In this document: one piece after another, positions 6,471-11,691 of the stretch
How the letters are laid out: each line of letters begins with the position of its first letter
How positions within the stretch are numbered: the stretch's first letter is position 1
Source: Methylomonas sp.
GTDB lineage: Bacteria; Pseudomonadota; Gammaproteobacteria; Methylococcales; Methylomonadaceae
NCBI GenBank assembly: GCA_026988155.1
Contig: JALSLW010000053.1
Span: forward strand, 1 to 64,000
Length of the DNA: 64,000 nt
Direction: 5' to 3'
Made by a program: the position numbers and the translations under genes
The notes under the pieces: generated by a model
The model's input: only the letters and a program-made list of their open reading frames with translations
Database searches by the model: none
Told to the model about the DNA's origin: nothing

Positions 6471-7940
6471 GTGACTAAAAAACGCCCCCGAAAAAAAACC
6501 AGCATCGGTTCTCTCGCCCAATGGGCATTTGCCAGCTTTATTATGATGAGCCTGCCATTAATTTTTGCGATTGTTTATACCGTGTCAGGGGTAGGGAGCT
6601 TTACAGAGAAAAGTCAGTCAACTATATTTAAAGCGGTAAATGAAACTGAAAGTGCCCGCATTATTCTAGAGCGTTTAGCGTCCATGGAACGCAATATTCG
6701 ACAGATTCAGCTTTTCGGCAAGTCAGTTTTTTATGATTTGTATCAAGAAAATAGGAATAAATTTCTGGTAGAAATGGCCTCACTTCAGATAAGTGACAGG
6801 AGTGAGCAATTAATAACGCAGCTGGATTCTTTAAAGCATAATGAAAATACATTTCACCAATATTTTTTAACTAAACTGGAAGGTGAAGAAGTCAAGCTAA
6901 CACAGGAAGATCTTAACTCCTTCGATCAATTAACTCAGGAAGCTCGAACCTTAGTGGCTGAAGGAGAGCAAAAAGTCCGTTCAGAATCTGATTCTTTATT
7001 AAAAGCAGCTAAACAGTTAAAACAAGAACTTATTTATTTAGCCGTTGGCAGTATCATTATTGCATCGCTTTTGTCTTTATTCTTTGTTCGTTTATTGCTT
7101 AGACCGATTAAAGATATAGCCCAAGCTATTCGTTTCTTAGGCGAAGTAGGGTTTGATCAGGCCATTTCCATCAGAGGACCTAAAGATCTGCAAAAATTAG
7201 GCGGTCACCTTGAATGGCTAAGAGTTAGACTTGACAACCTGGAAAATGATAAACAGCAATTTATCAGGAATGTTTCTCATGAACTTAAAACGCCTTTAGC
7301 GACGTTAAAGGAAGGAACTGACTTATTATCCGAAAATGTCGTGGGCGAGCTAAATACCGAGCAGCAAGACATTATTCAATTAATGAAAATAGGCAATATC
7401 ACTATTCACGACTTGGTCGAAAACTTGTTAGAATACCAAAGAACTATCTCGACCCAAATTGTTTTTAATGTTACAGGCTTTAAATTAGAAACGCTGATAG
7501 ACAGAGTAACTGATGAATATGAACTACTCCTTAGGAGTAAAAATATCTTTCTAAAAAGCAACCTGCACTCAACTGAAATTGATGCCGATTATGACAAACT
7601 TAGAATTGTTATCAGCAATCTCTTTTCAAATGCACTTAAATTTTCACCTCAAAACGGTTCAATTGGATTAACCCTCTCTTCTAAAGATAGCATCATAACC
7701 TTAATTATTGAAGATCAGGGACCAGGTATAGCCAAAGAAATTCAGCCATTAATATTTAAAGATTTTTTTTATGGCAATTCAACTCCGGATTGGAAAATTA
7801 AAGCATCTGGCCTAGGACTTGCATTAGTAAAACATTACCTTGATGCACATAATGGTTCAATTAAATTACTGTCCGCAAATGAAAACTATTGCGGCGCCCG
7901 ATTTTCCATTCTTTTACCGCAAAATCAAGGAAATAACTGA
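6471..7940 (+). CDS. glrK: GlrK/QseE-type membrane sensor histidine kinase
   Basis: This 489-residue inner-membrane kinase has a transmembrane helix at about 15-40, a periplasmic helical region (42-185), a second transmembrane helix (about 186-208) and a HAMP linker. HisKA follows, with the phospho-acceptor in NVSHELKTPL (His about 270), then HATPase_c with an N-box (NLFSNALKF), EDQGPGIA and GLGLALVKHY. Identity as GlrK rests mainly on context: the next two genes are a QseG-like lipoprotein and a GlrR-type sigma-54 activator, coupled by TGATG and TAATG stop/start overlaps. The start is GTG. It should phosphorylate GlrR at Asp62. In enterobacteria GlrK responds to envelope-related cues together with QseG. 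Confidence 0.85.
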   Translation: MTKKRPRKKTSIGSLAQWAFASFIMMSLPLIFAIVYTVSGVGSFTEKSQSTIFKAVNETESARIILERLASMERNIRQIQLFGKSVFYDLYQENRNKFLVEMASLQISDRSEQLITQLDSLKHNENTFHQYFLTKLEGEEVKLTQEDLNSFDQLTQEARTLVAEGEQKVRSESDSLLKAAKQLKQELIYLAVGSIIIASLLSLFFVRLLLRPIKDIAQAIRFLGEVGFDQAISIRGPKDLQKLGGHLEWLRVRLDNLENDKQQFIRNVSHELKTPLATLKEGTDLLSENVVGELNTEQQDIIQLMKIGNITIHDLVENLLEYQRTISTQIVFNVTGFKLETLIDRVTDEYELLLRSKNIFLKSNLHSTEIDADYDKLRIVISNLFSNALKFSPQNGSIGLTLSSKDSIITLIIEDQGPGIAKEIQPLIFKDFFYGNSTPDWKIKASGLGLALVKHYLDAHNGSIKLLSANENYCGARFSILLPQNQGNN

Positions 7941-8506
7941 TGTCAGCCCTATTTAGGCTTTTTTTACTATTTACTGCTCTTTCAACACAAGGCTGTCAAC
8001 AGTTGCCCTCATATCCATTTTATAAAGGAGATGATGCCAAAGCCGAAACAGAGGAAGCAATTTACGCTGATCAAAAACATGATCAGGTTCATAGTCTAAT
8101 GCGACTAGGCCGACAATACAGCAAATTAACTAAAGAAAGCAAACAGGATGCCTGTACACAATTAGAGCAAGACTACCTGCACCAAAATGACTGGCAATCG
8201 GCATGGCTTTTGGTCTATCTGTTAAATGATGATTTTAAATGCCTTAGCCAAACAAAAACGCTTAAATTATTGAAAGCCATCCAAGCAGATACAGATTTCA
8301 ATGTCTCTTTAAGATGGATGAACCGCAATCAAATCAAATTAATAGATAAATTAATCGCTTTACAAGCCCAGAACAGTAAATATAAGAAAAAAAACAGTGA
8401 CTTAAAAAATAAATTAGACGAAGCTGAAATTCAGCTACAGGAAGTTATCTCTAAAATTCAAGCACTTAAAATAATTGAAACCACCATTAATCAGAAAACC
8501 GAGTAA
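7940..8506 (+). CDS. qseG: QseG-like outer-membrane lipoprotein
   Basis: This 188-residue protein has an N-terminal hydrophobic segment ending at Cys19. The lipobox is imperfect (L-S-T-Q-G-C), but lipidation at that Cys is likely. The remainder is helical. Residues about 135-185 are rich in Lys/Glu/Gln heptads (KKKNSDLKNKLDEAEIQL), which predicts a coiled coil. It sits between glrK and glrR, overlapping glrK by one base and sharing TAATG with glrR, exactly the position of qseG in enterobacteria, where QseG interacts with the GlrK/QseE kinase. Sequence conservation in this family is low, so the name relies on synteny, lipoprotein character and size. Confidence 0.7.
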   Translation: MSALFRLFLLFTALSTQGCQQLPSYPFYKGDDAKAETEEAIYADQKHDQVHSLMRLGRQYSKLTKESKQDACTQLEQDYLHQNDWQSAWLLVYLLNDDFKCLSQTKTLKLLKAIQADTDFNVSLRWMNRNQIKLIDKLIALQAQNSKYKKKNSDLKNKLDEAEIQLQEVISKIQALKIIETTINQKTE

Positions 8507-9894
8507 TGACAGAACAAATAGAAAAAAATTTTCAGGCACAAAAAATTTTACTGGTGGATGATGATCCCAGTTTACTGAAGCTTCTTGCCTTACGCTTCCG
8601 CTCACTTGGCTTTGAAGTCAATACCGCAGAAAGCGCAGAACTGGCCGTTGCATTAATTCCAAGCTACCATCCGCATTTAGTCATAACCGATTTGAGAATG
8701 GGTGAAATGGATGGCATGGCATTATTTAATCATATCAAAGAAACCTACCCCACCATCCCCGTCATCATCCTAACTGCACATGGCACAATAAAAGAGGCAG
8801 TAGCCGCCACCAGTGAAGGAGCCTTTGGCTTTCTTACTAAACCCTACGATCCTAAAGAACTGGTTGAACTGGCCAGCAAAGCCCTATCAATAAACATCTG
8901 CCACCCTTTAGACCAAGCAACCAAAAAAGAACTCTCCTGGCGAGAAAAAATCATTACCCGCAGTGTTCTTATGGAAAATTTATTGCGAGAAGTTGAACAC
9001 GTTGCCAACAGCAAGATCAGTGTCTATATTCATGGGGAAAGCGGTACTGGCAAAGAGCTTATTGCTCAGGCAATACATAATATTAGCTCACGCAGAGACA
9101 AGGAATTCGTCACTGTCAATTGCAGCGCAATTCCTGAAGATCTACTGGAATCAGAATTATTTGGGCATTGTAAAGGTGCCTTTTCCGGTGCCTCTGCAAA
9201 CCGAAAAGGTCTGTTTGAAGAGGCTGATGGAGGCAGTTTATTTCTTGATGAAATAGGCGATATGTCTGCAGCTTTCCAGGTGAAACTGTTACGTGCCTTG
9301 CAGGAAGGAGAAATCCGTCCCGTTGGATCTAACAAGACCATTAAAGTTGATGTCAGGGTTATTTCTGCCAGTCATAGAGACTTGCAAAAACTGGCTGCTG
9401 AAGAAGTTTTTCGGACAGATCTTTATTACCGCCTAAATGTAGTTACTTTGTCCCTGCCTCGGTTAGCTGACAGACTGGAAGATATCCCTCTTTTAGCCAA
9501 CCATTTTATTGCAAACAATCATTCTAACCCTCATGGCATTGCAAAAGGCCTGTCTACAGAGGCGATGGAATTGTTAGTTTCTTATGAATGGCCTGGCAAT
9601 GTCAGACAGCTTAAGAATGTAATTGAACATATCTGCACTTTTGCCACAACACCTTTAATCCCAGTTAGTCTTGTTGAAAATGCTTTGCAGGAAAAACAGG
9701 GGTCTGCATCATTAAGCTTTAATGATGCTAAAAAGAACTTTGAGCGTGATTACCTGGTTAAACTGCTTCAATTAACCAATGGCAAGGTAACGGAAGCTGC
9801 CAAGCTAGCCAAGCGTAACCGAACAGAGTTTTATCGGCTATTGGATCGCCATGAGCTTAAAGCGGCTCAATTTAAAATAAAAAAAGAAGCTTAA
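8506..9894 (+). CDS. glrR: GlrR/QseF-type sigma-54-dependent response regulator
   Basis: The 462 residues comprise a receiver domain (1-125; acidic pocket DDD at 18-20 and phospho-acceptor Asp62 in ITDLRMG), a sigma-54 AAA+ domain (about 150-380) and a C-terminal Fis-type helix-turn-helix (about 415-450, KVTEAAKLAKRNRTEFYRLL). The AAA+ domain has Walker A GESGTGKE at about 177-184, the sigma-54 contact loop GAFSGA at about 224-229, and Walker B LFLDEIGD. It should bind enhancer sites and open sigma-54 promoters. In enterobacteria GlrR recognises TGTC-N10-GACA upstream of glmY. Two such sites and a sigma-54 promoter lie immediately downstream here, before an EF-hand gene. Confidence 0.92.
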   Translation: MTEQIEKNFQAQKILLVDDDPSLLKLLALRFRSLGFEVNTAESAELAVALIPSYHPHLVITDLRMGEMDGMALFNHIKETYPTIPVIILTAHGTIKEAVAATSEGAFGFLTKPYDPKELVELASKALSINICHPLDQATKKELSWREKIITRSVLMENLLREVEHVANSKISVYIHGESGTGKELIAQAIHNISSRRDKEFVTVNCSAIPEDLLESELFGHCKGAFSGASANRKGLFEEADGGSLFLDEIGDMSAAFQVKLLRALQEGEIRPVGSNKTIKVDVRVISASHRDLQKLAAEEVFRTDLYYRLNVVTLSLPRLADRLEDIPLLANHFIANNHSNPHGIAKGLSTEAMELLVSYEWPGNVRQLKNVIEHICTFATTPLIPVSLVENALQEKQGSASLSFNDAKKNFERDYLVKLLQLTNGKVTEAAKLAKRNRTEFYRLLDRHELKAAQFKIKKEA

Positions 9895-9947
9895 ACCCCT
9901 TTTATATAAAAGCCTGCATAAAGAACCAGCTCAGCACGCTCCCTATC

Positions 9948-9965
9948 TGTTGCATTCCCACGACA
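9948..9965. promoter_or_regulatory. Putative GlrR enhancer site 1
   Basis: TGTT-N10-GACA matches the GlrR operator TGTC-N10-GACA at 7 of 8 bases. It shares a longer core (TGTYGCA..CAYGACA) with site 2. Its centre is about 362 bases upstream of the predicted start of the sigma-54 transcript. Confidence 0.55.
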
Positions 9966-10064
9966 GCTCACATCTAAGCCAATAGACTGATTTAAAAGAT
10001 AAAGATATGACACACTTATCTATAAAAGAACAAAAACATGGCTGGGCGGCCAATAATGCAATGT

Positions 10065-10082
10065 TGTCGCAAAAGCATGACA
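10065..10082. promoter_or_regulatory. Putative GlrR enhancer site 2
   Basis: TGTC-GCAAAAGCAT-GACA is an exact TGTC-N10-GACA match. Its centre is about 245 bases upstream of the predicted start site, a distance workable for a sigma-54 activator acting by DNA looping. Confidence 0.65.
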
Positions 10083-10171
10083 CTCTTTCGTCAATATCAA
10101 TAGTCTTTTGATGACAAGAATGTTTAGAAGGCCTAAACGAATGAGCAATTTAAACCTAAACTCAATTATCT

Positions 10172-10192
10172 TAGAAAGATCAGTTGAGCACG
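10172..10192. repeat. Copy of a dispersed 21-base motif
   Basis: TAGAAAGATCAGTTGAGCACG differs at one base from the opposite-strand copy at 43364-43384, which forms one end of an inverted-repeat element. Here it appears alone, as a fragment between the GlrR sites and the sigma-54 promoter. Confidence 0.5.
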
Positions 10193-10292
10193 TATTTTAT
10201 CCTACCGAATGGGGGCCTGATAAATAATTAATATATAACATACAATAGCTTGCGAACAGGTTTAGCGTTTAACTTATTTTTCTATAATTATC

Positions 10293-10308
10293 TGGCATGT
10301 CATTTGCT
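10293..10308 (+). promoter_or_regulatory. Sigma-54 (-24/-12) promoter of the EF-hand gene
   Basis: TGGCATG-N4-TTGCT has GG and GC spaced exactly as in the RpoN consensus TGGCACG-N4-TTGCW, with one mismatch in the first block. Transcription should begin near 10319, giving a ~46-base leader that carries the AAGGA at 10355-10359 before the ATG at 10365. Together with two upstream GlrR-type sites and the adjacent glrR gene, this predicts GlrR-dependent expression. Confidence 0.75.
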
Positions 10309-10364
10309 TTAGCTAACATGAGTAGCAATATTCATCACAACAGCAACTACATTTAAGGATTATA

Positions 10365-10652
10365 ATGAAAAAATTATTAGCAATATTATCCATTACCTTA
10401 GTTTCATTTGCGGTAACTGCAGAAAGTGCCGTCGTAGAATTTGGTTCCACCTTAGCTCCTATAAAATCAGAGCCCAAGCAGAATGATTCAAACCTATGGA
10501 ACATGCTTGATACGGATAAAGATGGCTATATCAGTAAAAGTGAAGCCGTATACTCTACCCGCATCTCGGATAGATGGAGCAGTCTAGATACCAATAAAGA
10601 TGAAAGACTTGACACAGCTGAGTTTTCACACTTTTATTCTAATAATAAATAA
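10365..10652 (+). CDS. Small secreted EF-hand calcium-binding protein
   Basis: This 95-residue protein has a signal peptide (1-19; MKKLLAILSITLVSFAVTA followed by ESA). A mature domain of about 75 residues carries two EF-hand loops: DTDKDGYISKSE, with all canonical ligands, and DTNKDERLDTAE, with Glu in place of the usual Gly6. It is a single EF-hand pair, predicted to bind Ca2+ in the periplasm or outside the cell. It is preceded by a sigma-54 promoter and GlrR-type sites and followed by a strong terminator, so it is a one-gene transcription unit. The role is unknown; calcium sensing or buffering in the envelope-stress response governed by GlrKR is a guess. Confidence 0.85.
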   Translation: MKKLLAILSITLVSFAVTAESAVVEFGSTLAPIKSEPKQNDSNLWNMLDTDKDGYISKSEAVYSTRISDRWSSLDTNKDERLDTAEFSHFYSNNK

Positions 10653-10663
10653 CCAGTTCTACC

Positions 10664-10725
10664 CAAATTCTATCTGACCCAGAGAATCTTTCCTACCAGT
10701 TCTGGAAAAGATAGAATTTGTTTTT
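10664..10725 (+). terminator. Rho-independent-type terminator after the EF-hand gene
   Basis: A 12-bp perfect stem pairs CAAATTCTATCT (10664-10675) with AGATAGAATTTG (10709-10720), enclosing a 33-base loop and followed by TTTTT (10721-10725). It also lies downstream of the convergent mutarotase gene and may serve both strands. Confidence 0.7.
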
Positions 10726-10761
10726 GCATTTCTAAAAATAGAATTGCAAGGTTTAATGCAA

Positions 10762-11691
10762 TCAGTCTCTAACAACCTGGTAATTAGTTACCATTCTATA
10801 CTTACAGTCTGGCTGTATTGTCACTTTATTTGAGGCTGCATTGGCTATTTCAACACAGATAAAACGTTTGTAATCTTCACCCGTTAAATCTTGCATCTTC
10901 TCCGCACCTTTAGCACCAGGGTTCCAGACTACAACATTTTTATTCCCTGATGATAAGATTTGTATTTTTCGCTTTAGAACAGGATCTAAAATAGTCAAAT
11001 CATGCCCTACATTGATATGGATATGATCAGTTTCCTGCTCAAGAATAACAGCACCAACCTGACAGACCTTTATAAAATCTTCCGCTTTGTCTAAATATTC
11101 TGTTTTTTCCAGCCCTAAAACCTGCACCTGTGCAGCATCACCTACTTTAAAATACGCATGTAATGCCTCGGTAATGGTAAAAACCTGCTCTCCTCTATTT
11201 TGAGTCACAAGATCTAGAGTAAGCGAATCACCGATAGTAATATCTAATGAAAGGTGAAATTGATAAGGCCACATTTCTCTGGTTTTATCAGAATCAAAAA
11301 ATTCCAGCTGTACTCTAACATCTCCATTTTTTAAAACATCAACAGCTGAAACTGTCCAAAAATCATTCCGCACAAACCCATGACTGGGATTCTCTGGCTT
11401 TATAGGCGCACCACCAAACCAGGGCCAGCAAATTGGTATCCCGCCTTTAATAGCCTTTCCTTCCTGAAAAAAAGCATTATCACTGATAAACATAACATCT
11501 TCAGATTCTTTATTAGGCCTGAATGATAAAACCTGACCTGCATAAATAGAAATTACAGCGGTGGCTTTTTCAGTCGTTATCTGTATAAAGGGCAGGCCGC
11601 CACGGCCTTCAACAAACTTAACCTGATCCTTGATGCCAAAATCAACATTTAATTGCTGAATATTGAAATGCCTATCTTCCTTCATAATCAC
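10762..11691 (-). CDS. D-hexose-6-phosphate mutarotase (YeaD family)
   Basis: This 309-residue cytosolic aldose-1-epimerase-fold protein of the YeaD (glucose-6-phosphate 1-epimerase) family interconverts the anomers of hexose 6-phosphates. Typical blocks are GGIPICWPWFGG (near residue 84), PSHGFVRNDFW, TEALHAYF and VVVWNPG. The His in HGFVR and the Glu near the C-terminus (FICVEIANA) fit the epimerase active site. Its ATG lies inside the end of the carbonic anhydrase gene (20-base overlap), so the two are translated from one message. There is no adjacent sugar pathway to explain the pairing. Confidence 0.88.
   Translation of the reverse strand: MIMKEDRHFNIQQLNVDFGIKDQVKFVEGRGGLPFIQITTEKATAVISIYAGQVLSFRPNKESEDVMFISDNAFFQEGKAIKGGIPICWPWFGGAPIKPENPSHGFVRNDFWTVSAVDVLKNGDVRVQLEFFDSDKTREMWPYQFHLSLDITIGDSLTLDLVTQNRGEQVFTITEALHAYFKVGDAAQVQVLGLEKTEYLDKAEDFIKVCQVGAVILEQETDHIHINVGHDLTILDPVLKRKIQILSSGNKNVVVWNPGAKGAEKMQDLTGEDYKRFICVEIANAASNKVTIQPDCKYRMVTNYQVVRD

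Follow-up and report, generated by a model that had tools for sequence, protein, structure and literature searches.

In Escherichia coli, the QseE–QseG–QseF system (GlrK–QseG–GlrR) controls the small RNA gene glmY and rpoE, and in enterics glmY is located upstream of glrK (PMC6075780). For QseF, as GlrR is also called, the published consensus reads TGT-N12-ACA (PMC6075780). GlrKR (QseEF) has been studied in enterics. The genes are reported in beta-, gamma- and deltaproteobacteria and in Nitrospira (PMC8895600). The Methylomonas locus described here shares with the E. coli system the gene order, the regulator helix, TGT-N12-ACA, the sigma-54 promoter and a target beside the operon. However, the putative target is a secreted EF-hand protein gene located 3' of glrR, whereas that of E. 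coli is a small RNA gene located 5' of glrK (PMC6075780). With the PrsK–PrsR/PEP-CTERM system, the locus has in common a sigma-54 activator, single-gene units, long upstream regions, a -24/-12 promoter and exported products. The activator motif given for that system ends in TTTACA (PMC1569441), and the EF-hand translation of our locus shows no PEP-CTERM tail. In the case of CaBP from Caulobacter vibrioides, a small exported bacterial EF-hand protein is likewise connected to a stress circuit. CaBP consists of 133 residues with three EF-hands, and the title of that paper connects it with sigV and with neither GlrR nor sigma-54 (PMC13171946).

The window, i.e. the whole stretch of 64,000 nucleotides analysed here, is from Methylomonas sp. 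(contig JALSLW010000053.1 of GCA_026988155.1). The source genome (3.4 Mb, 107 contigs) contains a methane/ammonia monooxygenase A-type gene. The top match listed in a scan of named genomes is a Methylothermaceae assembly, and the bacterium is probably a methanotroph of the Gammaproteobacteria. The features of the locus are summarized in Table 1. The order of sensor kinase, small lipoprotein and sigma-54 response regulator is that of GlrK–QseG–GlrR (QseEGF). In the closest relatives (G003, G004, G013, G063 and G097), a counterpart of the kinase with 53–72% identity is encoded 5' of glrR. The qseG-like counterparts show 34–43% identity in the same five genomes and 24% in G114. Searches of the curated families (Pfam and NCBIfam) gave no match at the cut-off for the qseG-like protein, and a Pfam match to a starch synthase domain was under the cut-off and was set aside. 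The top NCBIfam model for the regulator is the GlrR equivalog NF011695. The score of 577.9 bits is under the cut-off of 763, and thus the regulator is a relative within the GlrR family rather than a member according to that model. It shows 54% identity to Ewingella GlrR, and the C-terminal helix NRTEFYxLLxRH is common to both. The DNA-binding helix of the regulator agrees with that of the enterobacteria, and no separate helix-turn-helix domain is called by Pfam.

Table 1. Features of the glrK–qseG–glrR locus and the adjacent EF-hand gene (positions in the window)
Feature	Position	Strand	Basis
glrK (qseE)-like sensor histidine kinase	6471..7940	+	HisKA and HATPase_c above cut-off
Lipoprotein gene (qseG-like), flanked by glrK and glrR	7940..8506	+	Position; lipobox-like LSTQGC in translation
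glrR (qseF)-like sigma-54 response regulator	8506..9894	+	Receiver and sigma-54 AAA+ domains
Upstream candidate GlrR site TGTTGCATTCCCACGACA	9948..9965	.	Full TGT-N12-ACA fit; 7/8 letters of TGTC-N10-GACA
Candidate GlrR site TGTCGCAAAAGCATGACA	10065..10082	.	Exact TGTC-N10-GACA, one of 30 in genome; exact also 5' of orthologues
Predicted sigma-54 -24/-12 promoter TGGCATGTCATTTGCT	10293..10308	+	One letter off TGGCACN5TTGCW
EF-hand protein gene, 95 aa, predicted secreted	10365..10652	+	Signal-peptide-like N-terminus and two loops, from translation
Hairpin and T-run, probable terminator	about 10664..10720	+	Fold -20.5 kcal/mol, then GTTTTTG

The gap between the end of glrR and the start of the EF-hand gene is 470 bases long. 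Within 9895–10364, TGT-N12-ACA occurs only twice, at 9948 and 10065, and both candidate sites are located 5' of the predicted sigma-54 promoter, as in the GlrK–QseG–GlrR system. The exact site, the 7/8 site, the promoter, the one-gene EF-hand unit and its terminator, all reported in an earlier note, were found at their positions. The -12 element is located 58 bases before the ATG, and the corresponding distances of the other EF-hand genes measured are 39–163 bases. The distance between the -12 element and the nearest site is 233 bases, whereas that of 25 other EF-hand genes measured is 69–195 bases; this greater distance counts against the control by GlrR proposed below.

The product shows a Pfam EF-hand_1 match of 33.3 bits against the cut-off of 25.4, and all 24 members of the EF-hand protein alignment A2 also match this family (E up to 0.001). 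According to the translation, the two loops are DTDKDGYISKSE and DTNKDERLDTAE. Since two EF-hand loops are present, calcium binding of the protein is likely. The single-sequence structure prediction is poor (mean pLDDT 59.7), and a sequence search of the solved structures gave three weak matches, which are eukaryotic EF-hand proteins. Lanmodulin is a small exported EF-hand protein of methylotrophs. The protein of the window resembles it in these respects, but its score against the lanmodulin model (NF053806) is 22.1 bits, far under the cut-off of 135. The XopAW-type calcium-binding effector model (NF041410) was also rejected, with 23.8 bits against the cut-off of 120.

We propose, with a probability of about 0.84, that the neighbouring GlrK–QseG–GlrR pathway directly controls the EF-hand gene, and that this gene is driven by sigma-54 and encodes an exported, probably calcium-binding protein of an envelope response. 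GlrK together with QseG would phosphorylate GlrR. Phosphorylated GlrR would then bind to the sites at 9948 and 10065, and the DNA would loop to bring it to the sigma-54 RNA polymerase at 10293–10308. A one-gene message would be produced from about 10319 to the hairpin. As part of the envelope response, the exported product would bind calcium through its two EF-hands, either in the periplasm or extracellularly. As QseG interacts with the kinase in the periplasm of E. coli (PMC6075780), feedback on either of them by an exported target is possible; a simple envelope or calcium-buffering role is equally likely. The anatomy of the locus and its conservation were observed directly, as was the association of site and promoter with the EF-hand gene in other neighbourhoods. 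The binding of GlrR, the transcription, the export, the ion binding and the physiological role are what we infer from these sequences.

One target known from E. coli is located next to the operon, namely the small RNA gene glmY (PMC6075780). The sites and the promoter might serve another feature of the gap, such as an unannotated GlmY-like small RNA, and the EF-hand gene might be merely located downstream. The recurrence of the hairpin 3' of the EF-hand gene at the same place in three relatives (G003, G004 and G013) is in favour of this reading. However, no Rfam family was detected at the threshold in the whole window, GlmY and GlmZ included, and neither glmY nor glmZ is present as a target beside the operon within the window. 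At a lax threshold, 9700–10900 gave just two weak matches, both to eukaryotic families. A known small RNA in the gap was rejected on the basis of these two scans. Moreover, the position of the -12 element before the ATG is inside the range of the other EF-hand genes, and the site and the promoter are kept where the EF-hand gene has another neighbourhood. A small RNA as the true target is therefore very unlikely. The shape of the 10664–10720 hairpin is kept in G003 and G004 with an apparent paired change, and the hairpin may have a role beyond that of a terminator.

The motifs alone prove nothing, since neither of them is enriched across the window. With one mismatch allowed, the site motif shows 15 matches in the whole window against 14.5 expected, and with two mismatches allowed, the promoter motif shows 39 against 44.3. 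Such loose matches at chance frequency would be consistent with chance sites beside an unrelated gene. In the whole genome, exact TGTC-N10-GACA occurs 30 times and TGGCAYN5TTGCW 19 times on both strands, the promoter at 10293–10308 being one of the 19. From these counts, the chance of an exact site in the 470-base gap is estimated to be approximately 0.4%, and that of a strict promoter on the right strand approximately 0.1%. Conservation across genomes is stronger evidence than these statistics. Sites and promoters are present at the orthologues, as described below, and the explanation by chance is already contradicted by this conservation. We regard its probability as negligible.

GlrR (E < 1e-120) was detected in 8 of the 121 genomes drawn from the family. 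A close relative of the EF-hand protein (E < 1e-14) is present in five of the 121 genomes, and all five are among the eight. In two genomes of another genus, the EF-hand gene is located 3' of glrR with a perfect promoter and with two (G013) or three (G063) exact sites. In two genomes of the same genus (G003 and G004), the EF-hand gene and glrR are on different contigs, and the EF-hand gene comes after a glutamate-dehydrogenase-like gene (from the translation). Despite this other neighbourhood, an exact site and a promoter precede it; the promoter of G004 is weak. Promoters in the relatives are placed similarly to that of the window. The other three GlrR-bearing genomes, all of genus g20, have no EF-hand gene of this type. 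In one of them (G114), two exact sites and a weak promoter precede a relative of an acyltransferase-like gene on contig 17 of the source genome. Four more weak EF-hand matches (E about 1e-4 to 8e-4) were found outside the eight GlrR genomes, and no exact site is present at their loci.

The survey was extended to 128 GlrR loci, which consist of the window, 98 loci from the genome draws and 29 from among the matches listed in a scan of named genomes; the GlrR flanks of three GlrR-bearing genomes of the class (G313, G352 and G402) are outside the set. A secreted-looking gene with two EF-hands is present nearby in 28 of the 128 loci, and in none of 63 loci of related activators, which are of mixed phyla, unmatched to the GlrR loci and cover 0.62 Mb against 1.11 Mb. 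By the pattern used, which is blind to degenerate hands (e.g. L270, counted as EF-hand in the GlrR tree only), the other 100 loci have no such gene nearby; the available flank was too short in 15 of the 128. Of the 28 paired loci, 24 including the window represent 17 family codes, and loci of one family are not independent in these counts. The other four, among the matches listed, are from Neptuniibacter (two), UBA7525 and HyVt-581. The earlier note had considered the circuit to be rewired in this lineage; because the pairing is widespread, over these 17 family codes and four named loci, a lineage-specific rewiring is unsupported.

An exact site is located just 3' of glrR in 33 of 127 loci (two for the control palindrome), and in the 1.1 kb 5' of glrK in 22 of 120 loci (one for the control). 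The results for the 31 EF-hand genes at GlrR loci, for which start codons were picked by a simple score, are as follows. An exact site was found for 20 of the 31 (shuffled mean 0.21), a site with up to one mismatch for 27 (4.4), and a promoter with up to two mismatches for 24 (1.5). The strict pair in the correct order precedes 15 of the 31 genes, and the loose pair 23. The corresponding numbers in the shuffles are 0.0 and 0.12. For the other long-ORF starts of the same loci, they are 6 and 8 of 243, and for the paralogue loci 1 and 4 of 708. Two sites are 63–67 bases apart in 8 of 26 EF-hand genes measured. The genes for which no site–promoter pair was detected include those of L254 and Neptuniibacter and two of the three in L255. 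The Neptuniibacter genes have sites and, by the pattern used, no promoter. Thus, the sites and the promoter are kept in another genus, in two genomes of the same genus and in many other families. This cross-genome comparison supports the claim of the earlier note that the GlrK pathway directly controls the EF-hand gene, as far as sequences can tell. It contradicts the refuting condition given in that note, namely sites that are not conserved where relatives retain both genes.

Several loci show variations around glrR. In L255, three EF-hand genes are arranged in a row 5' of glrK, and the sites and the promoter precede only one of them (520 bases scanned). According to the translations, the GlrR-adjacent EF-hand protein is apparently fused to a BON-like domain in L252 and L068, and in Janthinobacterium (L083) and Duganella (L086) a lone BON-like gene is at the place of the EF-hand gene. 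Exosortase-type acyltransferase-like genes (from the translations) are located behind GlrR-like sites in L045, L145, L202, L212, L219, L220, L231 and L238; these comprise seven loci 3' of glrR and contig 17 of the source genome. In L219 and L220, a small secreted-looking ORF is present between glrR and the acyltransferase-like gene. Genes resembling ybgC and tolQ are located 3' of glrR in at least three loci, L065 and L247 among them; in L065 they come after the EF-hand gene. A link to Tol-Pal is possible. The other genes behind sites beside glrKGR include exosortase-type acyltransferase-, OpgG-, BON-domain- and ybgC-tolQ-like genes (an incomplete list, from the translations). Most of them look like genes of envelope functions.

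In the source genome, 20 regions with exact sites were fetched besides that of the window, and the remaining nine of the 30 were compared with the strict promoter list alone. Four exact sites are located within about 310 bases 5' of a correctly oriented strict promoter. They precede the EF-hand gene of the window, a second EF-hand gene (contig 61), a PEP-CTERM-like gene (contig 83) and the acyltransferase-like gene (contig 17). With up to two mismatches in the promoter, the site–promoter pair is found in 5 of the 20 fetched regions. The EF-hand profile has seven matches in the genome, and the two strongest were examined. The second EF-hand gene (L043, contig 61, 26325–26822) has the exact site TGTCGGCTATCTATGACA and the perfect promoter TGGCACGCCAGTTGCT, and no hairpin of the kind described above follows it. 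A stretch containing TGTGACCGAAGTTGCA, located at approximately 2972–2996 of the window, recurs in L043 at approximately 2190–2320 and is perhaps an interspersed repeat. At the PEP-CTERM-like gene (L044, contig 83, approximately 145151–146055), TGTCAAAACTGTCTGACA and TGGCATCATCATTGCA are present 5' of the gene, and the reader of these could be GlrR or PrsR. A near-copy of the L044 upstream stretch is present on contig 104 (L046).

As an exact site and a strict promoter precede the PEP-CTERM-like gene, such sites could be read by PrsR or by a further sigma-54 activator broadly related to GlrR. In that case this activator would drive the EF-hand gene, and GlrR would be a mere neighbour. PrsR is above the cut-off in seven of nine genomes tested, the source genome (G000) included, and the number of matches to the GlrR query in the source genome, at least 28, indicates further sigma-54 activators. 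However, Haft et al. 2006 (PMC1569441) describe a PrsR motif of 17 bases with TTTACA at its end, which differs from TGTC-N10-GACA, although the motif may be another one in this lineage. Moreover, in enterics and many other bacteria, exact sites are found on the flanks of glrKGR itself. In G012, PrsR is present and GlrR is absent at the cut-off, and the locus of the sole, weak EF-hand match has no site. For these reasons, an activator other than GlrR is improbable, and GlrR is retained as the proposed regulator.

EF-hand genes away from glrR were also analysed. Matches to the EF-hand profile are present in 126 of 369 genomes of the class, and many of them probably represent EF-hand proteins of another kind. 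In this distance test, the upstream region is that of the profile match and not of the start codon. Among 22 higher-ranked EF-hand matches away from glrR in GlrR-bearing genomes, the strict pair is present in 4 and the loose pair in 10. Among 26 matches in 25 genomes first scored as GlrR-less, using a GlrR cut-off of 1e-135 which missed at least one genome (G299), the strict pair is present in two (G209 and G299). Three more have the loose pair (G350, G382 and G268), giving 5 of 26. Four of these five pairs adjoin glrR or a glrK-like stretch: GlrR is directly upstream of the EF-hand gene in G299, glrK is beside it in G209 and G382, and a stretch matching the glrK region of L242 is beside it in G268, which belongs to the same genus as G382. 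GlrR itself is absent from the matches of the genome search in G209, G382 and G268, and contig ends are the likely cause. Among the other 22 matches, the pair of G350, which has no GlrR at the cut-off, is the only one left without an explanation. A borderline GlrR match with 44% identity was found in G318, which had been counted as GlrR-less. In a further 22 GlrR-bearing genomes where no adjacent EF-hand gene was seen, EF-hand matches are present in eight. Nine usable upstream regions from these genomes were scanned, leaving aside L359, which was too short, and L367 and L368, which are additional fragments of the region of L362. The loose pair was found in three (L357, L358 and L366). These counts indicate that some of the genomes carry the circuit at a distance from glrR, whereas others show no such circuit.

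The history of the pairing was considered on a GlrR tree of 127 of the 128 loci, which was a quick FastTree calculation with 33 open forks; for 15 of the 128 loci, the flank was too short to assign a label. The EF-hand neighbour changes 16–17 times on this tree, and at least 12 changes are forced by well-supported branches. The pattern would be explained by gains that recurred, or by an old neighbour that was lost or moved many times, and the tree fits both alike. Control of a secreted EF-hand gene by GlrR thus appears to be widespread in the Gammaproteobacteria, and old or recurrent. In Neptuniibacter, which groups with the enterics and the Halomonas relatives in the GlrR tree, the EF-hand genes are located 5' of glrK, that is, in the position of the enteric glmY. 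From this position we tentatively suggest, as a possibility that is rather doubtful, that a secreted EF-hand protein was the ancestral output of GlrK–QseG–GlrR, acting next to GlrK and QseG in the periplasm as calcium-linked feedback or as an envelope effector, and that the enteric glmY took its place.

The earlier note had regarded this target as not known to be described, and the literature searched is in agreement. No paper pairing GlrR or QseF with an EF-hand protein was found, and no described GlrR target outside enterics was found; subscription journals were mostly outside the scope, and absence is therefore not proven. The main text of a 2025 comparison of sigma-54 regulons (PMC12316311) contains no GlrR, QseF, EF-hand or calcium. 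A study of Acidithiobacillia that names GlrR (PMC12194929) does not mention EF-hand. What appears to be new here is a widely shared type of target for a known regulator.

The exported EF-hand protein is a repeated and specific candidate target of GlrR, and it offers a simple reporter. It also gives a first guess at what the system handles, namely calcium or envelope charge. These results suggest that the small-RNA circuit of enterics may be a single offshoot of a broader envelope system and not its original form.
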